A stretch of 64,000 nucleotides of DNA. Source: Gemmatimonadota bacterium. Its GTDB lineage: Bacteria; Gemmatimonadota; Gemmatimonadetes; Gemmatimonadales; Gemmatimonadaceae. The notes below the pieces were generated by a model. The model had not been told where the DNA came from. It saw nothing but the letters and a program-made list of their open reading frames with translations, and did not search any database. The stretch lies in assembly GCA_023249375.1 (NCBI GenBank), contig JAHFCT010000005.1, forward strand, positions 1 through 64,000, written 5' to 3'. Positions 44,663-56,341 of the stretch are shown piece after piece; the stretch's first letter is position 1, and each line of letters starts with the position of its first letter. Both the position numbers and the translations under genes were made by a program.

Positions 44663-45124
44663 TCAGGGCTTGGCTGGCTTGGCGGTCGTGGATGGCGCTC
44701 CGGGTTCATCACCGACAAAGACGGTCTGGTGCCAGTCCTCGACGGTCTTCTGCAGCAACTGCGTCGCATCGCGCCGGAACTGAATCCCCAGCGCCCATTC
44801 ACCGGCGGCGGGGAACATCAGCGTGGCGTGATACGTGCCGACCTCGGGCCCGTACTTGAACCCGTCCCACTTGGTGATGTGGTCGGCATTGGTAACGTAG
44901 ATACGTCCCTGCCCATCCGCGATGGGTTCCTTCGTTTTTTTGTCCTTGACGACGATCGTGTAGTGGATGGGCTCGAGCGAGACGGGGGGCGTGATGTCGC
45001 TCCACGCCCGAATCTCGAAGTCCTGCGTCCAGAGGCGGATGTCGGAGTTCGGGCGGTCGGCCGGCGCGCAGGACACGGCGGCCGGCAGAAGCGCCGCGAT
45101 GGCCAGGCGTCGCAGTGAAATCAC
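44663..45124 (-). CDS. Lipoprotein with FixH/YtkA-like domain
   Basis: A 153-residue protein. The signal ends AAVSC, a workable lipobox. The mature part (YTIVVKDKKTKEPIADGQGR and GTYHATLMFPAAGEWALGI) has the beta-sandwich pattern of YtkA-like domains, which often bind copper or assist periplasmic cargo. GTG start overlaps the inositol-phosphate synthase stop (GTGA). Partners and function unknown. Confidence 0.7.
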   Translation of the reverse strand: MISLRRLAIAALLPAAVSCAPADRPNSDIRLWTQDFEIRAWSDITPPVSLEPIHYTIVVKDKKTKEPIADGQGRIYVTNADHITKWDGFKYGPEVGTYHATLMFPAAGEWALGIQFRRDATQLLQKTVEDWHQTVFVGDEPGAPSTTAKPAKP

Positions 45125-46443
45125 GGTTGGTACTCCAGGCCCAGGTGGGTAATCTGCTCCTCCCCCATCAGGTGGCGGAGCGTGTTCTTCAGCTTCGTCT
45201 GCTGAATGAAAAGATCGTGCTCCGCGAGCAGCCCCGCAGGGGCCATCGGTGACTTGTAATAGAAGCTTAACCATTCTTGAATGCCCTTCATGCCCGCGCG
45301 GTGCGCCAGATCGCTGAACAGCGCCAGGTCGAGCACGATGGGGGCCGCGAGGATGGAGTCGCGGCACAAGAAGTTCACCTTGATCTGCATCGGGTAGCCC
45401 ATCCAGCCGACAATATCGATGTTGTCCCATCCTTCCTTGTTGTCGCCCCGCGGCGGGTAGTAGTTGATGCGCACCACATGCGAGAAGCCGCCATAGAGTT
45501 CGGGATACATCTCGGGCTGCAGGATGGTGTGCAGCACGCTGAGCTTCGACGCCTCCTTGGTCTTGAACGACGCGGGATCGTCGAGCACCTCGCCGTCGCG
45601 ATTGCCGAGGATGTTCGTCGAGTACCAGCCCGCGAGGCCGAGCATGCGCGCCTTGAGCGCCGGCGCGATCACCGTCTTCATCCACGTCTGGCCCGTCTTG
45701 AAGTCCTTCCCTGACACGGGCACGCCCTCGCGGTCGGCCAGCGCCAGTAGCGCCGGCGTGTCGACCGCGAGATTGGGAGCGCCATTGTTGTACGGCACGC
45801 CCTCCATGATGCACGCCCACGCATAGAGCATCGACGGCGCGATGTCGGGATGGTTGTCCTCCATCGCCGTCTCGAACGACTTGATGGTCTGATGCACGGC
45901 GGATGTCGTGATGTAGATCTCCGTCGACCCGCACCAGACGGCCACCAGCCGGTCGCAGCCGTGCGTCGCTTTGAAGTTCCGGATGTCCTGCCGCAGCTGC
46001 TCCGCCAGGTCGCGCTTGGTCTTGCCCTGCTTCACATGCGTGCCGTGGATGCGGGTCACGTAGTGCTGGTCGAAGACCGCCGGCATCGGCGTGATGGACT
46101 GCAGGAAGTCCTTGAGCGGCTCGAGATGCTTGTCTTCCAGCACGCCCGCCTTCTTGGCGGACGTGTAGGCGTCGTCGGGAATCGGGTCCCACGCGCCGAA
46201 TACGATGTCGCCGAGCCCGGCCAGTGGAACGAACTCGTTGATGAGCGGCGAGCGCTTGTCCGCACGCTGACCAAGCCGAATGGTGGCCATCTGGGTGAGC
46301 GACCCGATGGGCTTGCTCAACCCGCGGCGGATGGACTCCACGCCGGCAATGAACGTCGTGGCGACCGCGCCCAGGCCCGGCGTGAGGATGCCGAGTTTGC
46401 CCTGTGCGGGGCGAATCGTTGCGGACCTCTGAGCAGCTGGCAT
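45121..46443 (-). CDS. ino1: Inositol-3-phosphate synthase
   Basis: Converts glucose-6-phosphate to 1L-myo-inositol-1-phosphate, an NAD-dependent reaction. GLGAVATTFIAGV near the N-terminus binds NAD. NGAPNLAVDTPALLALA and STNILGNRDGEVLDDP with FKTKEASKLSVL are the conserved active-site segments of Ino1. The 440 residues fit bacterial and archaeal types. The next gene upstream (19-base gap) is a CDP-alcohol phosphatidyltransferase, so its product probably becomes a phospholipid head group. Confidence 0.93.
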   Translation of the reverse strand: MPAAQRSATIRPAQGKLGILTPGLGAVATTFIAGVESIRRGLSKPIGSLTQMATIRLGQRADKRSPLINEFVPLAGLGDIVFGAWDPIPDDAYTSAKKAGVLEDKHLEPLKDFLQSITPMPAVFDQHYVTRIHGTHVKQGKTKRDLAEQLRQDIRNFKATHGCDRLVAVWCGSTEIYITTSAVHQTIKSFETAMEDNHPDIAPSMLYAWACIMEGVPYNNGAPNLAVDTPALLALADREGVPVSGKDFKTGQTWMKTVIAPALKARMLGLAGWYSTNILGNRDGEVLDDPASFKTKEASKLSVLHTILQPEMYPELYGGFSHVVRINYYPPRGDNKEGWDNIDIVGWMGYPMQIKVNFLCRDSILAAPIVLDLALFSDLAHRAGMKGIQEWLSFYYKSPMAPAGLLAEHDLFIQQTKLKNTLRHLMGEEQITHLGLEYQP

Positions 46444-46462: not shown

Positions 46463-47134
46463 TCATGGAGTCGGGTGATCGGCGGCGGGTTGCGCGTCGG
46501 GTTCTGGCGCCTCGGCCGCGGCCTTCGTCACCCAGTGGACGTACGCGATGCGCTGCATCGCGGTCACGATCGCGGTGGCCGAGAGCACCGAGAGTATGAG
46601 GCGCAGCACGAGCCCGTCGAGTGCAAGCCCGAAGAGCGCTTGAGGCGCGGCGAGGAGCGTGATGCGCTCCGCGCGCTCCATCATCCCTACGCCCTTCATC
46701 GCGATGCCCAGCGTCTCGGCGCGGGCTCGCGTGTAGGAGATGGAGAAGGTGGCAATCATGCCGAGCAGTCCGACCGCGACCATCGGCATCGACCGATGCC
46801 ACGCATTCGCCGCGAAGAAGAACGTGAGCCCACCGAAGAGGAACCCATCGGCGATGCGGTCGAGCGTGGAATCGTAGAACGCGCCAAAGGTCGTGGCGCG
46901 GTTGGTGCGGCGTGCGACCGCGCCATCGGCGAGGTCAAAGACGGCGGTGACCGAGAGAATCCATCCGCCGGTGCTGATGTGCCCCATCGCAAACGCGACG
47001 CCCGCGCCGCAGGTGCAGAGCGTGCCGATGGTGGTGAGTGCGTTGGGGCTGACACGACGCCGCACGAGGAACCCGATGAAGGGCTCAACGACGCGAAGAT
47101 ACCCGGCTATGATCGAGTCCCAGAGGGAGCGCAT
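46463..47134 (-). CDS. CDP-alcohol phosphatidyltransferase, probable phosphatidylinositol-phosphate synthase
   Basis: Membrane enzyme of 223 residues joining CDP-diacylglycerol to an alcohol. The signature D-x2-DG-x2-AR-x8-G-x3-D-x3-D is intact (DLADGAVARR, TFGAFYDSTLDRIAD), with several membrane helices. RAERITLL resembles the inositol-phosphate-binding region of mycobacterial PgsA-type enzymes. With ino1 directly downstream, the acceptor is probably inositol phosphate, not glycerol phosphate, but this is inference. Confidence 0.82.
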   Translation of the reverse strand: MRSLWDSIIAGYLRVVEPFIGFLVRRRVSPNALTTIGTLCTCGAGVAFAMGHISTGGWILSVTAVFDLADGAVARRTNRATTFGAFYDSTLDRIADGFLFGGLTFFFAANAWHRSMPMVAVGLLGMIATFSISYTRARAETLGIAMKGVGMMERAERITLLAAPQALFGLALDGLVLRLILSVLSATAIVTAMQRIAYVHWVTKAAAEAPEPDAQPAADHPTP

Positions 47135-47284: not shown

Positions 47285-48436
47285 TTAGCGGTACATCATC
47301 ACCGCTCGGGCACGCTTCTGGAACGCGACGAGCGCCGGCAAGCTGGCATCGACCAGCGAATCGGGGTCTGCACCGCGCGACACGAGCAGCAGCGCCTGGC
47401 CGAGGCCTGGAGCCGACGCGGCGCCCGCAAGCCGCAGGGAATCGCCGTGCACTTTCCATACGGCCCACGCCAGGTCGAGCGTCAGGCGCCCCGTCTGCAC
47501 CCGTTCGCGATCGAGCACACGAATGCGGATGGCAGGAACGCTGAATCCGTCATACTTGCCATCGGTGGGGCGATGCGGAGCGAAGTGTTCGGCTTCGAAC
47601 TTGACACCGGGATGCGGACGGTCGGCGAGTTCATCGAGCACGCGCTTGGTATCGAGCCAGGGCGCGCCCACGCGAAGCAGCGGCTCTGCCGTCCCACGGC
47701 CGAGCGAGAGCGTCGTGCCTTCGAGCGGAAGCAGCACCGCCGCGACGAGCAGGTCGTCAACGTCCTTGACCTCGTCCACGGGCGAACTCCACGGCAGTTT
47801 GCTCTCGCGGCCCCAGAAGTTCCGGCGGCGCACGCCGCGCGCCGGCACGACGTGCAGGTCGGCGTCGGCAGGCAGCGACGACTTATACAGCCGCAGCGCC
47901 TCGCCCACCGAGAGGCCGTACCGCACGGGGAGCTCCACGTCGCTGCCGTCCACCGGCCGCCACATCGGTCCGTCGTGCGTCTCGCCGCCGAGCGACGGCG
48001 TATGGTCGAGGATCACGACGCGCGCTTTGTGCTGCGCCGCGATGGCGACCAGCCGATGCAGCTTCCCCAGCGACGAGCGCGCCGCAAATCCACCGTCATT
48101 CAGGTCGATGACCGCGCCATTGATGCCGCGCCAGCTCGCGTCATTGAGCGCGGAGTCGGGGCTGATCACGGCAAGCAGGTGCACGTTCATCCGCCGCACG
48201 CGTCCGTCGTCACGCAGTTCCTCCGGGCTCGGCAAGCCGGCGTGGGCGCCCGGCGACGTCGTAATCCAGAGGACGCCACGTCCGGCCAGCAGGCGCAGAC
48301 TGTCTTCCACCAGCACGGTCATGCTCGCCCGCACTTTCTCCGGACGCGCAATACCCGCAGATTCCCTAGGTGGCCCCGACGACGCACACGCCGCCACGAA
48401 TGCCACTCCGACTATCCACGCCAAGGTCCGATGCAC
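47285..48436 (-). CDS. NamZ-like (DUF1343) exo-N-acetylmuramidase, predicted lipoprotein
   Basis: Relatives release terminal N-acetylmuramic acid from peptidoglycan. The 383-residue protein has a signal ending FVAAC. The DUF1343 plan is recognisable: RYGLSVGEAL, LHVVPARGV, LLPLEGTTLSLGRGTAEPLL, VGAPWLD and VKFEAEHFAPH. The segment that normally reads DVGxRxYTY reads LNDGGFAARSS and other core positions differ, so activity is uncertain. GTG start abuts the start codon of the divergent NagZ fusion. Next to NagZ it fits peptidoglycan recycling. Confidence 0.82.
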   Translation of the reverse strand: MHRTLAWIVGVAFVAACASSGPPRESAGIARPEKVRASMTVLVEDSLRLLAGRGVLWITTSPGAHAGLPSPEELRDDGRVRRMNVHLLAVISPDSALNDASWRGINGAVIDLNDGGFAARSSLGKLHRLVAIAAQHKARVVILDHTPSLGGETHDGPMWRPVDGSDVELPVRYGLSVGEALRLYKSSLPADADLHVVPARGVRRRNFWGRESKLPWSSPVDEVKDVDDLLVAAVLLPLEGTTLSLGRGTAEPLLRVGAPWLDTKRVLDELADRPHPGVKFEAEHFAPHRPTDGKYDGFSVPAIRIRVLDRERVQTGRLTLDLAWAVWKVHGDSLRLAGAASAPGLGQALLLVSRGADPDSLVDASLPALVAFQKRARAVMMYR

Positions 48437-51331
48437 GCTCGTCGTCTCGCCTCGCTAATGGCCATTGCCGCGCTCGCCGCGGCCTCGTGCGGCCGCTTAC
48501 GTACCGCGGCCCCGGTTGCCCCTGATGTAACACGCGGTGCACCGCCGAAGTTCACTCCATCGCTCACCGCGCCGCTCAACGATGCGGCGCGGACGTGGAT
48601 CGAGCAAACCCTCGCCAGCCTGTCCCTCCGCCAAAAGGTCGGGCAGATGACCTCGGCCTGGGTGCTCGGCGACTACACCAGCACCAGCGATCCCAGCTTC
48701 ATAGAAGTTCGCGACTGGGTCGTCAAGGACGAAGTGGGGTCGGTGACCATGTCGCTTGGCACACCCATTGAGGTGGCCGCCAAGCTCAACGATCTGCAGC
48801 GCCTGGCGCGCATCCCGATGCTCGTGCACTCGGACCTCGAGCCCAATCTCGGGCGGCTCGAGGGCGGCATCTTTGCGCCCTACACCTACGGCGCCGGCTC
48901 GGCGACGGTCATTCCGTCGAACATGGCGATCGGTGCCACCGGTGATACGTCACTGGCGCGGCGCGCCGGCGAGGTCACCGGGCGCGAAGCACTCGCCGTT
49001 GGCATCAACGTCGTGTTCGCGCCGACGGTGGACGTGAACAACAATCCCGCGAACCCGGTGATCAACACACGGTCGTTCGGCGAGGACCCGCAGGCGGTGG
49101 CGCAGATGTCGGCGGCGTTCGTGCGTGGCGTGCAGTCGGCGGGCGCGGCGGCGACGGCCAAGCACTTCCCCGGCCACGGTGACACCGACACGGACTCGCA
49201 TCTCGCGCTGCCGGTGGTGAAGAGCTCACGTGAGCGGCTCAATCAGGTTGAGCTGGTTCCGTTCCGTGCAGCCATCAACGCCGGCGTGCAGGGCGTGATG
49301 TCGGCGCACATCGCGCTGCCGGCCCTGGGCAAGGACAGCACGCCGGCTACGCTGCGCAAGGACGTCATCACCGGCCTCCTGCGCGACACGCTTGGATTCA
49401 AGGGCGTGGCGTACACCGACGCGCTCTCGATGGAAGGCATCGGCGCGGGATACACCATCGAGAAAAGCGCGGTGGCGGCGGTGCTCGCCGGCGCCGACGT
49501 GCTGCTCAAGCCGTCCGACATCCGCCGCGCCATCGACGCGGTCGTGGCGGCCGTGGAGCACGGCGACATTCCGGTGGCGCGCATTGACGCCTCGGTGCGC
49601 CGCCTGCTTGAGGAGAAGCTGCGCGTTGGCGTGATCCAGCGGCCGTTCGTTTCGCTCGAGGCGCTGCGTGATACCGTCGGCGCGCTCCCGCACCGCAAGC
49701 TCGCGCAGGAGATCGCCGAGAAGGCCATCACCCTCGTGCGCGATCGCGGCAGCCTGGTTCCGATGACGCGCGGCACGCCGACGCTCATCCTCAGCTACGC
49801 CCCCGAAGCGGACATCACCGCGGGCCGCGCGTTTGCCGCTTCGCTCCGCGGTGCGCTGGGACCGGGGACTCGCGCACAGCGCATTGGACCGCGCACGCCG
49901 CGCGCCGAGCTCGATTCGCTGGGCCGCGGCGCGTCACGCGTGATCTTCAGCACGCACGGCCGCACCATCGAGGGCGAGGGCAAGCTCGCCGTCGCGCCGC
50001 AGGTGGCGCAGTGGCTCGATTCCGTGGCGGCGGTAAGTCCGGTCGTGCTCGTGGCGCACGGCAACCCGTACGTCATTCGGCAGTTCCGCCGCGTCGGCAC
50101 GTACATGATGGCCTATGGCACTGGTGCCACCGTGGAAAACGCGTCGGCGCTGGCCCTCGCCGGCCAACGCGCCATCAGCGGCCACTCGCCGATTTCGCTC
50201 CCCGGCTTCTACTCGCGCGGTGACGGCATTCCGCGCCCACTTCCGTTTGCGCTCGAAGCGCTCCCGACTGTCATGAAGGACTCGCTGCAGCACCTGCTTG
50301 ATCGCGCCGTGCGCGACTCGGCGTTCCCGGGGGCGGTGGCCGTGGTCGGCCGCCGGGATCGCGTGCTCGCCACCGTGAGCGCCGGACACCTCGACTGGAA
50401 GCCGTCGCCCGCTCCCGACGCCCGTACGCTTTGGGATATGGCCTCGCTGACCAAGGTCACCGCCACCACGAGTGCGGTGATGCAGCTGGTCGAGCAGCAG
50501 CGCGTGGACATCAACGCGCCGGTGCAGAAGTACCTCCCCGACTGGCAGGGACCGAACAAGGAGAAGGTGCTCATTCGCCACCTGCTCACGCATGCGTCGG
50601 GTCTGCCGGCGTGGCGTCCGCTGTACAAGGAAGCGACCAACGCCGAGCAGGCAATGCAGCTCGTCTTCCAGACGCCGCTCGACACGCTGCCGGGCGCGCG
50701 GATGCTGTACAGCGATCTCAACTTCATTCTGCTCGCGCAGGTGGTGCAGCGCGTCAGTGGAGAACGCATCGACGCCTACACGGCGGCCCACGTCTTCGGT
50801 CCGCTCAAGATGACCGACACGCAGTACCGGCCCGACAAGTCGCTGATGGAACGCATCGCACCCACCGAGGTGGATCCGTGGCGCCAGCGACAGATTCGCG
50901 GCGAGGTGCACGACGAGAACGCCTTCATCCTCGGCGGCGTCTCCGGACACGCCGGCCTCTTCTCGACAGCCGCCGACGTCACGCGCCTCTGCCAGGCGTA
51001 CCTGAACGGCGGCACGCTCGACGGCGCGCGCGTGTGGAGCCCCGAAACGATCAAGCTCTTCACGACCGTCGTTGACTCGACCTTTTCCAACCGCGCGCTC
51101 GGATGGGAAACGCCCAACGGCACCAACTCGGCGGGGCGCGTGATGAAGCGCCCGGCCTTTGGCCACACCGGCTTCACGGGCACCAGCATCTGGATCGATC
51201 CGGCAAGAGATCTGTTCGTGGTGCTGATGACCAATCGCGTGAACCCGACCCGGCAGAACAACAAGATTGGGGGCGTCCGTCAGACGGTGGCCGACATGGC
51301 GGAGGCGCTGGCCGCGGCGGCAAGGCCTTAG
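48431..51331 (+). CDS. nagZ: NagZ beta-N-acetylglucosaminidase fused to a serine beta-lactamase-like domain (lipoprotein)
   Basis: Two-domain envelope enzyme of 966 residues. The signal ends AAASC, so Cys20 would be lipidated. The GH3 domain has KHFPGHGDTDTDSH (244-257), carrying the NagZ-specific Asp-His loop, and nucleophile D330 in YTDALSMEG. After a GH3 C-terminal-like domain, a class C beta-lactamase/PBP-like domain has SLTK (S672, K675), YSD and HTG (from 912). Such fusions are common in Bacteroidota and release GlcNAc from peptidoglycan while the second domain may act on peptides. I chose the ATG at 48431 because it begins the signal peptide; the frame is open far upstream but is not coding there. 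Confidence 0.93.
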   Translation: MHARRLASLMAIAALAAASCGRLRTAAPVAPDVTRGAPPKFTPSLTAPLNDAARTWIEQTLASLSLRQKVGQMTSAWVLGDYTSTSDPSFIEVRDWVVKDEVGSVTMSLGTPIEVAAKLNDLQRLARIPMLVHSDLEPNLGRLEGGIFAPYTYGAGSATVIPSNMAIGATGDTSLARRAGEVTGREALAVGINVVFAPTVDVNNNPANPVINTRSFGEDPQAVAQMSAAFVRGVQSAGAAATAKHFPGHGDTDTDSHLALPVVKSSRERLNQVELVPFRAAINAGVQGVMSAHIALPALGKDSTPATLRKDVITGLLRDTLGFKGVAYTDALSMEGIGAGYTIEKSAVAAVLAGADVLLKPSDIRRAIDAVVAAVEHGDIPVARIDASVRRLLEEKLRVGVIQRPFVSLEALRDTVGALPHRKLAQEIAEKAITLVRDRGSLVPMTRGTPTLILSYAPEADITAGRAFAASLRGALGPGTRAQRIGPRTPRAELDSLGRGASRVIFSTHGRTIEGEGKLAVAPQVAQWLDSVAAVSPVVLVAHGNPYVIRQFRRVGTYMMAYGTGATVENASALALAGQRAISGHSPISLPGFYSRGDGIPRPLPFALEALPTVMKDSLQHLLDRAVRDSAFPGAVAVVGRRDRVLATVSAGHLDWKPSPAPDARTLWDMASLTKVTATTSAVMQLVEQQRVDINAPVQKYLPDWQGPNKEKVLIRHLLTHASGLPAWRPLYKEATNAEQAMQLVFQTPLDTLPGARMLYSDLNFILLAQVVQRVSGERIDAYTAAHVFGPLKMTDTQYRPDKSLMERIAPTEVDPWRQRQIRGEVHDENAFILGGVSGHAGLFSTAADVTRLCQAYLNGGTLDGARVWSPETIKLFTTVVDSTFSNRALGWETPNGTNSAGRVMKRPAFGHTGFTGTSIWIDPARDLFVVLMTNRVNPTRQNNKIGGVRQTVADMAEALAAAARP

Positions 51332-51392
51332 CACACAACGAGATGGCGCGGGGGAGCCGAAGGCTGATCTTCCCCGCGCTCACGCGGAGCAG

Positions 51393-51421
51393 TTGAAGGG
51401 GGGCACTCCCCTCTATAGATT
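51393..51421 (+). promoter_or_regulatory. Candidate promoter of erpA
   Basis: TTGAAG and TAGATT are 17 bases apart, about 45 bases before the ATG, with a GGAG ribosome binding site six bases before it. Upstream of it, a GC-rich inverted repeat (about 51347-51380) may end the nagZ transcript. Confidence 0.5.
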
Positions 51422-51471
51422 CCGACGTACCAAAGGCGGTTTCCACCGCCCCCCAACTCCCGGAGTTTGTC

Positions 51472-51828
51472 ATGAGCACGATGAATACTCCCGAAATCGC
51501 CCTGACGATTTCCGCCAACGCCACCACCGAGGTCAAGAAGTTCATGGCCGCGGAAGGCGTGTCGCCCGATGTGGGCGGTTTGCGCGTGAGCGTCCAGCCG
51601 GGCGGCTGTTCGGGCTTCAAGTACAGCTTGCTGATCGAAGACCAGGCGGCCGAGGACGACACGGTGCTGCCGCAGGAAGGCTTCCGCGTCTTCGTTGATC
51701 CTTTCTCGATGCAGTATCTCAATGGCGTCCAGATCGACTACACGACGTCGATGCAGGGCTCCGGCTTCACCTTCAAGAACCCGAACGCGACCGGCGGCTG
51801 CGGTTGCGGCAGTTCTTTCTCCGCATAA
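51472..51828 (+). CDS. erpA: Iron-sulfur cluster insertion protein, A-type carrier (ErpA/IscA)
   Basis: A-type carrier of 118 residues that delivers Fe-S clusters to target proteins. C46 in QPGGCSGFKY and C110, C112 in GGCGCGSS are the conserved ligands, with FVDPFSMQYLNG between. ATG chosen for GGAG six bases upstream. It sits 17 bases before the NagB fusion gene, an unusual neighbour. Confidence 0.94.
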   Translation: MSTMNTPEIALTISANATTEVKKFMAAEGVSPDVGGLRVSVQPGGCSGFKYSLLIEDQAAEDDTVLPQEGFRVFVDPFSMQYLNGVQIDYTTSMQGSGFTFKNPNATGGCGCGSSFSA

Positions 51829-51844
51829 CCACGAGTTTTTCGCG

Positions 51845-53833
51845 ATGACGTCTGGCCTTCGCCACGACGCCGCAGATGCCCGTAAGGCCCGCGACACCGC
51901 CACGGCGGTGCATCGCGGGCCTTCCGTCTCCGGCGCCCTCACCGCGCTCGAGCGCATCCCCACGGTCGTCCTCGACGACCACCTCGACATCGCGCGCCAT
52001 GTCGCGCAGCGGATCGCCAGCGTCATCCGCGCCCGCAACGCCGAGGGGCGCGACGCCGTCCTCGGCCTTGCCACCGGCTCGACGCCGATCGGCGTGTATC
52101 GCGAGCTGATTCGCATGCATCGCGACGAAGGGCTCAGTTTCCAGCGAGTGGTCTCGTTCAATCTTGACGAGTACTACCCGATGGCGCCCGACAACATCCA
52201 CTCGTACCATCGCTTCATGTGGGAGAACCTGTTCTCCCACGTGGACGCCGACCGGGCCCGGGTGCACATCCCCGATGGCACGGTGGCGCGCGCGGACCTC
52301 GAGGCCTGGTGCAAGGGCTACGAGCAGGCGATTCGCGATGCCGGTGGCATCGACGTGCAGATTCTCGGCATCGGCAAGACGGGGCATATCGGCTTCAACG
52401 AGCCCGGCTCGGGTGAGCAGAGTCGCACGCGCCCGGTGCACCTCGACGCCGTGACGCGCCGCGACGCGGCCGCCGATTTCTTTGGCGAAGAGTTTGTGCC
52501 GCGCGAAGCGGTGACGATGGGCGTGGCCACGATCTTCGAGGCGCGCGAGATCATCATTATCGCCACCGGCGAGCACAAGGCGCGCGTGGTGAACCGCGCC
52601 GTGGAAGGTCCCATCGACATCGAGGTGGCCGCGACGTTCCTGCAGCGCCATCGGGCGACGACGTTTTACGTGGACGCCGCGGCCGGCAGTGAACTCACGC
52701 GCACGGCGACGCCGTGGCTGCTCGACGAAGTCGAGTGGACGCCGATGCTCACGCTGGAGGCCGTCACCTGGCTCTCGCGGAAGGTGGGCAAGGCCATCCT
52801 GAAGCTCACGCAGCACGACTACGCCGAACACAAGCTGTCGTCGCTCGTCGCCCGCCACGGCAGTCCCGGCGCCGTCAACGGCCTTGTCTTCAACGAGTTG
52901 GGCGCGAAGATCCGCGGCAAGAGCAAGCTGCCGCAGGGCAAGCGCATCGTCTGCTTCTCGCCGCATCCCGACGACGACGTCATCTCGATGGGCGGCATCC
53001 TGCGCAAGCTCACGGAGAACGGCAACGACATCATCGTGGCCTACATGACGAGCGGCAACATCGCCGTCTTCGACTACGATGTGCGCCGGCACGTGGACTT
53101 CCTGATGCGCATGCACCGCGATCACCGCATCGGCGGCGCCGAGGTGGATACCGAAGCGCAGAAAGTGCACGACTTCCTCGCCGCCAAGAAGCCGGGCGAC
53201 GTCGACATTCCCGAAGTCGCCGACATCAAGCGCGTCATCCGCGAAGCCGAGGCGATCAGCGGCCTCGAGACGGTGGGGCTGAGCGCCGCGAACGGCCGCT
53301 TCCTCAACCTGCCGTTCTACCAGACGGGTGAGGTCAAGAAGGATCCCATCGGCCCCGCCGACGTGGCGATCGTCCGCGCGCTGCTCGAGGAAACGAAGCC
53401 GGAGATGATCTTCGTCGCCGGCGACTTGTCCGATCCGCACGGCACGCACCGCATGTGCAAGGAAGCCATCGACGAGGCCATCGCGGAACTGTGGCCGAAT
53501 CGCCTGCGCGGTCCGCAGGCGCATCGCATGCACCGCGCCTCCGACCCGCAGCCAAAGGCGGAGGCACCTGAAGTCTGGCTGTATCGCGGCGCGTGGCAGG
53601 AGTGGCCGGTGACCGAGGCTACCTGGCTCGTGCCGATGTCACAGGAAGAGCTGCGCCTCAAGATCCAGGCAATCTTCAAGCACCAGAGCCAGAAGGACTC
53701 GATGCCCTTCCCCGGTCAGGACGATCGCGAGTTCTGGCAGCGCGTGGAACAGCGCAACAAGGACACCGCAGGCATCCTCGACGAGCTTGGACTCGCCGAG
53801 TACTTCGCCATGGAGGCGTATGTCGTCGACTAG
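51845..53833 (+). CDS. nagB: Glucosamine-6-phosphate deaminase NagB fused to a PIG-L/LmbE-type domain
   Basis: The N-terminal half (about 35-330) is NagB: LGLATGSTPIGVYREL, FNLDEYY (D108, E109) and GKTGHIGFNEPGS (H181). It converts glucosamine-6-phosphate to fructose-6-phosphate. The C-terminal half (about 365-620) is LmbE/PIG-L-like with SPHPDDD (373-378), the metal-binding PHPDDx motif, and DPHGTH. It has 662 residues, against about 266 for E. coli NagB. The fused form occurs in Bacteroidota-like genomes and its second activity is undefined. A 40-residue N-terminal leader is variable-looking. Confidence 0.9.
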   Translation: MTSGLRHDAADARKARDTATAVHRGPSVSGALTALERIPTVVLDDHLDIARHVAQRIASVIRARNAEGRDAVLGLATGSTPIGVYRELIRMHRDEGLSFQRVVSFNLDEYYPMAPDNIHSYHRFMWENLFSHVDADRARVHIPDGTVARADLEAWCKGYEQAIRDAGGIDVQILGIGKTGHIGFNEPGSGEQSRTRPVHLDAVTRRDAAADFFGEEFVPREAVTMGVATIFEAREIIIIATGEHKARVVNRAVEGPIDIEVAATFLQRHRATTFYVDAAAGSELTRTATPWLLDEVEWTPMLTLEAVTWLSRKVGKAILKLTQHDYAEHKLSSLVARHGSPGAVNGLVFNELGAKIRGKSKLPQGKRIVCFSPHPDDDVISMGGILRKLTENGNDIIVAYMTSGNIAVFDYDVRRHVDFLMRMHRDHRIGGAEVDTEAQKVHDFLAAKKPGDVDIPEVADIKRVIREAEAISGLETVGLSAANGRFLNLPFYQTGEVKKDPIGPADVAIVRALLEETKPEMIFVAGDLSDPHGTHRMCKEAIDEAIAELWPNRLRGPQAHRMHRASDPQPKAEAPEVWLYRGAWQEWPVTEATWLVPMSQEELRLKIQAIFKHQSQKDSMPFPGQDDREFWQRVEQRNKDTAGILDELGLAEYFAMEAYVVD

Positions 53834-53854
53834 CCGCACGTCGCAGGGCACGCG

Positions 53855-55369
53855 GTGACGCCGAGCCGGTTCGGCATCCTCGACTTCGTCGTCCTCGTCG
53901 CTTATCTCGCCGGCACCACGGCGCTTGGCGTCTGGCTGGGCCGGGACCAGAAGAATTCCAAGGATTACTTCGTCGCCGGCCGCAACATTCCGTGGTGGGC
54001 GGTGATGTTCTCCATCGTCGCCGCCGAGACGAGCGCGCTGACGTTCATCTCGGTGCCCGGGCTTGCCGTTATCGGAAACTTCGGGTTCTTGCAAGTCTGC
54101 ATGGGTTACGTGCTTGGGCGCGTGGTGGTGGCCACGGTGCTGCTGCCGCGGTATTTCGAAGGCGATCTCGTGACGGCGTACGCGCTGCTCGAGACGCGCT
54201 TCGGGCCGGCGACGCGGCGCTTCACGTCGGTGGTGTTCATGGCGACGCGCGGCATGGCCGACTCGGTGCGCGTGTTTGCGTCGGCCATTCCGATTGCCAT
54301 CGTCATCGGCCCGGTGCTGCCGCGGCAGTACGTGATGCCGGCCGCCATCATCGTGCTCGGCGTGCTGACCATCATTTACACGTACCGCGGCGGCATGCGC
54401 GCCGTGGTGTGGACGGAGCTAGTGCAGGCAGGGGTGTACGCCACGGGCGGCATCGCGGCGGCCGTGCTCGTTGGGCACGCCGTCACCGGCGGCTGGCCGC
54501 ACATTCTCGAGGCAGCCCGCGCGCAGGACAAGCTGCGCGTCTTCGACTTCTACACCGGCTTCGACCGGCCGCACACGGCGTTTGCCGGCATCATTGGCGG
54601 CGCGGTGCTGACGATGGCGTCACACGGCGCCGACCAGACCATCGTGCAGCGCATGCTGTCGGCGCGCTCGCTGCGCGACGCGCAGAAAGCCATCATCGGC
54701 AGCGGCATCGCGGTGCTGGTGCTGATGACGCTCTTCCTCACGGTCGGCATTGGTCTCTGGTCGTATTATCAGGGCGCCGCGTCGTTCGCGTCACCCGACC
54801 AGATCTTTCCGACGTTCATCTTCGAGCGGATGCCGCACGGGCTCATCGGCCTGCTGGTGGCGTCGATCGTCGCCGCGACCATGAGCACGCACTCGGGAGC
54901 CATCAACTCGCTGGCGGCGACGACGACGCACGACATCTACGTGCCGCTGATGAAGGGCAAGGCGACCGAAGCGTCCACGTTCCGCGCCGGCCGCTGGTTT
55001 GCGCTCGCCTGGGGCGTCGCGCTGACCTTTGGCGCGCTGCTCTTCCCCGAGGGGAAGACGCCCGTCGTCGTCATCGCGCTGTCGATTGCGTCGTTCACGC
55101 AGGGCGCGCTCCTCGGCGGTTTCTTTCTCGGGATTTTCGTGAAGCGCGCCAAGCAGCGTGATGCGATCGTCGGCATGTCGGTGGGCATCGCCATCATGGC
55201 GTTCGTCGTCTTCGCCAAGCCGCTCTCGGCCGCGTATCCGTCGCTCGCCGCGGCCCTCGGCCCGTTCGCCAATGTCGCGTGGCCGTGGTACGTGCTTATC
55301 GGTACGACCATCACGATGACCGCCGGCACCCTCAGTTCGTTCGTGCGTTCGCCATCTGACGCGGGCTAA
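53855..55369 (+). CDS. Sodium:solute symporter (SSS family)
   Basis: Inner-membrane transporter of 504 residues with about 13 hydrophobic helices. FVVLVAYLAGTTALGVWLGR, the sodium-site-like SIVAAETSALTFISVPG, and GADQTIVQRMLSARSL are characteristic. Substrate not readable, but lying between nagB and a GlcNAc-kinase-like gene it probably imports an amino sugar such as GlcNAc or MurNAc. GTG start 21 bases after nagB stop. Confidence 0.88.
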   Translation: MTPSRFGILDFVVLVAYLAGTTALGVWLGRDQKNSKDYFVAGRNIPWWAVMFSIVAAETSALTFISVPGLAVIGNFGFLQVCMGYVLGRVVVATVLLPRYFEGDLVTAYALLETRFGPATRRFTSVVFMATRGMADSVRVFASAIPIAIVIGPVLPRQYVMPAAIIVLGVLTIIYTYRGGMRAVVWTELVQAGVYATGGIAAAVLVGHAVTGGWPHILEAARAQDKLRVFDFYTGFDRPHTAFAGIIGGAVLTMASHGADQTIVQRMLSARSLRDAQKAIIGSGIAVLVLMTLFLTVGIGLWSYYQGAASFASPDQIFPTFIFERMPHGLIGLLVASIVAATMSTHSGAINSLAATTTHDIYVPLMKGKATEASTFRAGRWFALAWGVALTFGALLFPEGKTPVVVIALSIASFTQGALLGGFFLGIFVKRAKQRDAIVGMSVGIAIMAFVVFAKPLSAAYPSLAAALGPFANVAWPWYVLIGTTITMTAGTLSSFVRSPSDAG

Positions 55370-55420
55370 GCGCGCAAGCCCCTTGAACGGGCCGCGTCAC
55401 GCGGTCATTCTCCGGACCTC

Positions 55421-56341
55421 ATGAGCTTTCTTATTGTAGGCGTGGACGGCGGCGGCACGAAGACCAAGGTCTCGGTGACCGACGAGAAGGGGCACGAACT
55501 GGCGACGGCGACGGGCGGCGGCAGTGCGGCGCGTCCGGGACAGACCACGCAGGCCGCGGAGATGATTGCGCAGACCGTGGCGGAGGCGCTGGCCGCCTGT
55601 GAACGCACGGGCGAAGTGCCGCGCGTGCTCTGCGCCGGACTCGCCGGCGCCGGCCGCGAGCCGGAACGGCAGGCCGTACGCGATGCGCTCGTGCGACTGG
55701 AGGTTGCGGACCGCGTGATTGTCGAGCCCGACGCGACCATTGCGCTCGAAGACGCGTTCGGCGACGGGCCGGGCATCCTGCTCGTCAGCGGCACCGGCTC
55801 GTCGTGCTTCGGCCGCTCCCCCACGGGCGCGTTCGGGCGGTGCGGCGGCTGGGGACTCAGCATCGGCGACGAAGGGAGCGGCGCGTGGATCGGCCGCAAG
55901 ACGCTGAGCATCGCCGCGGCGGCGGCCGACGGCCGCGAGCCTGAAACGGCACTGCTGCCGGCCGTGCTCACCGCGCTCGAACTCGAGAACAGCGATGGCC
56001 TCGTGGCGTGGGCGGCGCACGCCGACCCGGCGGCGCTGGCGCGACTGGCGACGATCGTCATTACGGTGGCGGCCACGGGTGACCTGCGCGCCAACTCGCT
56101 CCTCGCGCTCGCCACGGAAGAACTGGTGACGCACGTGCGCGCGCTGGCGCGGCAGCTCTTTGCCGACGAGCGCGCGGCCATTCCGGTGGCGCTGGCCGGC
56201 GGGCTGATGGAGCGCGGCTCGTTCGTGCGAAAGCTCGTCGAGCATCGGCTCAAGACCGCGGTGCCGGGCGCGATGGTGCGCGCCGAGCCTGTGGTTCCGG
56301 TGCGCGGCGCCGTGCGCGTCGCCCTGCGGCACGCGAAGTAG
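55421..56341 (+). CDS. BadF/BadG-type ATPase, probable N-acetylglucosamine kinase
   Basis: ASKHA-fold kinase of 306 residues. GVDGGGTKTKVSV is the phosphate-1 site, GILLVSGTGSSCFGR the phosphate-2 site, and RCGGWGLSIGDEGSGAWIGR the segment shared with eukaryotic-type GlcNAc kinase. Phosphorylating imported GlcNAc (or a related sugar) would supply substrate towards NagB; NagA is not seen. It follows the symporter by 51 bases. Confidence 0.88.
   Translation: MSFLIVGVDGGGTKTKVSVTDEKGHELATATGGGSAARPGQTTQAAEMIAQTVAEALAACERTGEVPRVLCAGLAGAGREPERQAVRDALVRLEVADRVIVEPDATIALEDAFGDGPGILLVSGTGSSCFGRSPTGAFGRCGGWGLSIGDEGSGAWIGRKTLSIAAAAADGREPETALLPAVLTALELENSDGLVAWAAHADPAALARLATIVITVAATGDLRANSLLALATEELVTHVRALARQLFADERAAIPVALAGGLMERGSFVRKLVEHRLKTAVPGAMVRAEPVVPVRGAVRVALRHAK

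Follow-up and report, generated by a model that had tools for sequence, protein, structure and literature searches.

The window (the whole stretch of 64,000 nucleotides analysed here) comes from a Gemmatimonadaceae genome and holds a putative amino-sugar salvage island together with its syntenic neighbours. With their coordinates in the window and their strands, the genes are:

45121..46443, minus strand: myo-inositol-1-phosphate synthase (Ino1); Pfam PF07994/PF01658; adjoins the fusion cluster in most family loci
46463..47134, minus strand: CDP-alcohol phosphatidyltransferase, phosphatidylinositol-phosphate-synthase-like (PIPS-like); PF01066; NF045883 145 bits, below the cut-off of 170
47285..48436, minus strand: NamZ-like lipoprotein with a GTG start; NamZ_N/NamZ_C (PF07075/PF20732), E 3.5e-14 and 7.5e-21
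48431..51331, plus strand: lipoprotein joining a GH3 beta-N-acetylglucosaminidase to a class C beta-lactamase/PBP4B-like serine hydrolase; Pfam, E 4e-79 and 2e-62
51472..51828, plus strand: ErpA/IscA-type Fe-S protein; PRK13623 117 bits, at the cut-off of 117
51845..53833, plus strand: fusion of NagB with a PIG-L/LmbE domain; NF002557 885 bits, cut-off 384
53855..55369, plus strand: SSS-family sodium:solute symporter; PF00474
55421..56341, plus strand: putative BadF/BadG-family N-acetylhexosamine kinase (GlcNAc and/or MurNAc); PF01869

The NamZ-like, GH3-lactamase, fusion, symporter and kinase genes are those that the sequence-only reading had gathered into one peptidoglycan amino-sugar salvage island. 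All five are real and lie where it had placed them, profile searches assigning them to their families far beyond chance, and the reading of the region as an amino-sugar salvage island is supported by this work. It had overlooked the ErpA-type gene, which separates the fusion from the GH3-lactamase gene. The NamZ-like and GH3-lactamase genes are divergent, with overlapping start codons, and both their proteins open with lipoprotein-like signals (VAAC and AASC, respectively). The Ino1 and PIPS-like genes are syntenic neighbours, the former probably unrelated to the island in function; their conservation next to it suggests that inositol phospholipids occur in Gemmatimonadaceae.

The fusion matches NF002557 across both its domains (positions 21-648 of 653), with its NagB domain scoring 250.9 bits against TIGR00502 (cut-off 236.9) and its PIG-L domain 63.5 bits against PF02585 (cut-off 28.2). 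The NagB catalytic residues D72, H143 and E148 have their equivalents in D108, H181 and E186 of the fusion, and these, as well as K245, are invariant in 109 of 109 fusion proteins, as are H374, P375, D376, D377, H532 and H535 of the PIG-L domain. LmbE/PIG-L enzymes bind their metal through a His-Asp-His set of ligands and use an Asp as general base (PMC4101496), to which the ligands and base of the fusion (H374, D376, D377 and H535) correspond, so that the metal site is intact. In an AlphaFold model of the whole protein (pLDDT 84.3, pTM 0.75), residues 38-289 match NagB structures with Z up to 36.6 (2bkv), whilst residues about 355-662 match BshB and diacetylchitobiose deacetylase (DAC) with Z 21-22; MshB is the weakest of the listed matches to the PIG-L domain, with Z 17. 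The matches of the model to BshB and MshB establish the fold only. As for the other PIG-L proteins of the genome, a third is encoded by a long ORF on contig C11, and a separate BshB1 (239.8 bits) serves bacillithiol deacetylation, for which reason a role of the fusion in thiol biosynthesis was rejected.

The usual way into GlcNAc catabolism and peptidoglycan recycling leads through NagA, whose absence, first noticed in the window, was borne out genome-wide and beyond. None was found in the genome itself, where all 35 TIGR00221 candidates were scored and the best reached 29 bits, nor in any of 119 Gemmatimonadales (0/119 by TIGR00221). One half of what the sequence-only reading had named as its refutation, a nagA gene elsewhere, therefore did not turn up. 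The E. coli NagA used as query gave at best about 30 bits in the order, over the C-terminal end, and an alignment query of eight NagA sequences, Bacillaceae NagA included, found no NagA in the same 119 genomes. B. subtilis, which carries nagA, gave no TIGR00221 match at 1e-30, so this query has blind spots; the idea of a hidden nagA in the order was nevertheless rejected, as the three queries gave C-terminal amidohydrolase matches only. With a genome completeness of 95.87%, absence from one genome is weak evidence, but absence from 119 is not.

The claim that MurQ is missing as well stands for the window and fails for the genome, where murQ, anmK and nagZ form an operon on a different contig. 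MurQ (G000:C72:35197-36066) is followed there by AnmK (406.9 bits, cut-off 387) and then by a GH3/NagZ-type protein that scores 160.8 bits against PRK05337, under the cut-off of 207, and in whose sequence no signal peptide is seen. MurQ exceeds its cut-off in 112 of 119 Gemmatimonadales, this genome included. Given MurQ, AnmK and NagZ, GlcNAc-6-P should be made and should require deacetylation. A second, stand-alone NagB (428 bits) is encoded at C73:172601-173338, and directly downstream of it lies a 656-aa protein with no NCBIfam match (L041:7541-9511, in G000:C73).

The fusion passes the NF002557 cut-off in 86 of 119 genomes of the order sample and in 186 of 298 of the phylum sample, whilst NagA-like proteins, all below the TIGR00221 cut-off, occur in 6 of the 298, all within a single family (f11). 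The two never meet in one genome (0/298); the hypergeometric probability of finding none in six would be about 0.003 were the genomes independent, but f11 is one clade, so the mutual exclusion amounts to few independent events and is closer to a single contrast. The f11 genomes have a stand-alone NagB (4 of 4 tested), and members of the window's own family without the fusion have no NagB at all (8 of 8 tested), such that NagB and the putative deacetylase are lost together, as one protein performing two steps would predict.

The gene order around the fusion is well kept. In 27 of 38 relatives' loci the ErpA-type gene, the fusion and the symporter follow one another, and the kinase is also there in 26 of these 27, the remaining locus stopping at a contig end. 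The ErpA/IscA-type gene immediately precedes the fusion in each of the 27 syntenic loci, and nothing obvious connects it with sugar metabolism. Where this synteny is not kept, the fusion is solitary or lies beside a serine hydrolase (L054, L069) or, judging from translations, beside GH20- and ROK-like genes (L070). The GH3 and serine hydrolase parts form two adjacent stretches in several genera (L053, L061, L062), and in other genera the serine hydrolase alone was matched, without GH3.

The best PDB match of the GH3-lactamase protein is 6k5j, a GH3 beta-N-acetylglucosaminidase, followed by YbbD/NagZ. The NagZ-type Asp-His dyad motif KHFPGHGxTxxDSH appears in it as KHFPGHGDTDTDSH, and an SLTK motif can also be read; its score against PRK05337 is 155, under the cut-off of 207. 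The symporter, the proposed importer of the amino sugar, is nearest to 5nv9, a putative sodium:solute symporter. The kinase is nearest to 8zo3, an N-acetylmuramic acid/N-acetylglucosamine kinase (E 3e-33), gives an E of only about 1e-6 against other MurNAc-kinase entries, and scores 103 bits against NF046058 (NagK), under the cut-off of 370. With a kinase of the GlcNAc/MurNAc class, the sugar would be phosphorylated while still acetylated.

The role first given to the NamZ-like protein, that of cutting MurNAc ends, is weakened by what has become of its sequence. Although both NamZ_N and NamZ_C exceed their Pfam cut-offs and the gene sits in the same slot as intact NamZ elsewhere, the alignment shows that the PEHG motif and a loop of about 33 residues around and after it are missing. 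Neither PEHG nor EHG is found in any of nine species of the genus (the window's and eight more), all of which keep the ORF intact, whereas the NamZ encoded at this place in other genera has FAPEHG or FSPEHG and the loop that follows. We take PEHG, in the N-terminal domain, to have a catalytic role in NamZ; judged by its sequence, the protein of the window's genus is probably a pseudoenzyme and no active muramidase. A dN/dS of 0.13-0.20 across the nine species indicates purifying selection and, together with the intact ORFs, shows that the gene still serves some purpose, perhaps binding. With NamZ probably inactive, it is probably GlcNAc, and to a lesser degree MurNAc, that the island itself takes in.

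From these parts a pathway can be proposed. The exported GH3/serine hydrolase lipoprotein would free GlcNAc, and perhaps MurNAc, from peptidoglycan or other glycans; the SSS symporter, assuming that this is its substrate, would import the freed sugar, and the BadF-type kinase would turn it into GlcNAc-6-P, or into MurNAc-6-P to be converted by MurQ. Anhydro-MurNAc recycled through the murQ-anmK-nagZ operon would likewise end as GlcNAc-6-P, where both arms would meet. The PIG-L domain of the fusion, as a metal-dependent de-N-acetylase, would then take the acetyl group off GlcNAc-6-P, its presumed substrate, and the NagB domain would deaminate the resulting GlcN-6-P, with the flux presumably running to fructose-6-P. 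Deacetylation by PIG-L, the step on which the proposal turns, is the likeliest reading because an acetylated sugar would be phosphorylated, a domain of the de-N-acetylase superfamily is joined to NagB, and no NagA was found. The fusion is thus probably a bifunctional GlcNAc-6-P deacetylase/GlcN-6-P deaminase standing in for NagA within the salvage island. The wider proposition seems reasonably plausible too, namely that a fusion of PIG-L/LmbE deacetylase and NagB replaces NagA non-orthologously in most Gemmatimonadota and part of the Bacteroidota, leading from GlcNAc-6-P to fructose-6-P in one protein, and that in Bacteroidales its deaminase has decayed and its deacetylase has been kept.

Both propositions have to be weighed against the possibility that PIG-L deacetylates something else (free GlcNAc, a GlcNAc oligomer or an unknown amino-sugar phosphate), with NagB merely belonging to the same pathway. 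The archaeal diacetylchitobiose deacetylase acts on a GlcNAc oligomer, and the PIG-L fold is close to it and to BshB. The Bacteroidota, whose gene contexts were taken from plasmid records, provide evidence on both sides. In Hymenobacter volaticus the fusion is followed by an MFS transporter, GH18, SusC/D and a hexosaminidase; in H. tibetensis one of the copies lies next to ROK proteins and GH20; and in Fibrella it comes after a dihydrodipicolinate-synthase-family protein (the superfamily to which NanA belongs), a sialate O-acetylesterase, GH20 and an MFS transporter. No nagA is annotated in these chitin/GlcNAc, GH20 and sialic-acid clusters of Cytophagales, in which the fusion occupies the position expected for nagA, and a NagA search of four Bacteroidota plasmid records, run without a positive control, came back empty. 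In Parabacteroides distasonis, on the other hand, two nagA-annotated genes adjoin a fusion. There and in Bacteroides finegoldii (the two Bacteroidales fusions, at L204:7920-9905 and L202:8920-10911) the NagB residues are changed, D108 to Y and H181 to N, with E186 to V additionally in P. distasonis, and those of PIG-L are all intact. The two halves are thus separable by evolution, with PIG-L the one retained, and the nagA-annotated genes beside the Parabacteroides fusion, whose NagB site is lost, imply that PIG-L may be useful on its own, apart from the deaminase to which it is joined. Even so, the kinase belongs to the N-acetylhexosamine class, GlcNAc-6-P would arrive from MurQ already acetylated and phosphorylated, and NagA was found neither in the genome nor in the order, so that another substrate, whilst deserving to be kept in mind, seems unlikely.

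Far less probable is a GlcNAc-inositol compound as the substrate, as for eukaryotic PIG-L or MshB. The conserved presence of Ino1 and the PIPS-like gene next door in most family loci invites the thought, but both are absent beside the fusion in 11 of 38 loci, those of the order relatives L077-L080 among them, in Bacteroidota the fusion is found in chitin or sialic-acid clusters, and MshB falls structurally behind BshB and DAC. Equally hard to credit is a fusion that is in effect a plain NagB, its PIG-L domain catalytically unimportant and GlcNAc-6-P used by another, unknown route: MurQ-positive relatives that lack the fusion, NagA and NagB (G011, G019, G032, G053 and G060), which tell against the bifunctional reading as well, do indicate that some members live without this step, but a domain of no importance would hardly keep its LmbE catalytic residues unchanged throughout 109 proteins, or hold on to them where NagB decays.

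The reading of the fusion as deacetylase and deaminase in one, if correct, has consequences for the reconstruction of pathways, in which a genome without nagA appears incomplete: GlcNAc utilization would be complete in most Gemmatimonadota and several Bacteroidota, and a widespread 'deaminase-like' family would gain a second activity. The fused family as such is already known as an NCBI subfamily (NF002557/PRK02122, 'glucosamine-6-phosphate deaminase-like protein'), which the fusion matches at full length and with the same NagB and PIG-L architecture. The NCBI name, however, states a deaminase-like function alone, and whilst the two Bacteroidales members examined have an altered NagB site, the examined members from Gemmatimonadota and Cytophagales keep both sites. 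The deacetylase role of the PIG-L half, as read from the sequences, is a testable prediction; in the literature searched, with subscription journals mostly outside its scope, we found no mention of a NagB/PIG-L fusion, of an alternative deacetylase or of PIG-L in place of NagA. With the LmbE-like deacetylases (MshB, BshB and diacetylchitobiose deacetylase) the domain shares the fold and the HPDD...H metal site, and it differs from them in being fused to NagB and in its proposed substrate. With NagA, an amidohydrolase, it would share the GlcNAc-6-P deacetylase reaction, in spite of belonging to an unrelated protein family.

Taken as a whole, the island represents known amino-sugar salvage in a variant form, to which a missing-enzyme prediction attaches. 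In Tannerella forsythia the murTKQ genes encode a MurNAc transporter of the sodium-symporter superfamily and a sugar kinase beside peptidoglycan-recycling genes (PMC5790795, PMC10465942, PMC7670621), forming a symporter-kinase-etherase operon for peptidoglycan salvage (PMC5790795, PMC7670621). The window's cluster resembles it in pairing a symporter with a sugar kinase, and departs from it in three respects: MurQ is encoded apart from the cluster, on a contig where AnmK and NagZ accompany it; the nearest match of the kinase is another MurNAc/GlcNAc kinase (8zo3); and the NagB/PIG-L fusion belongs to the cluster. Several genera (L058, L059, L061) have another SSS-like symporter, different from the first, next to the serine hydrolase.
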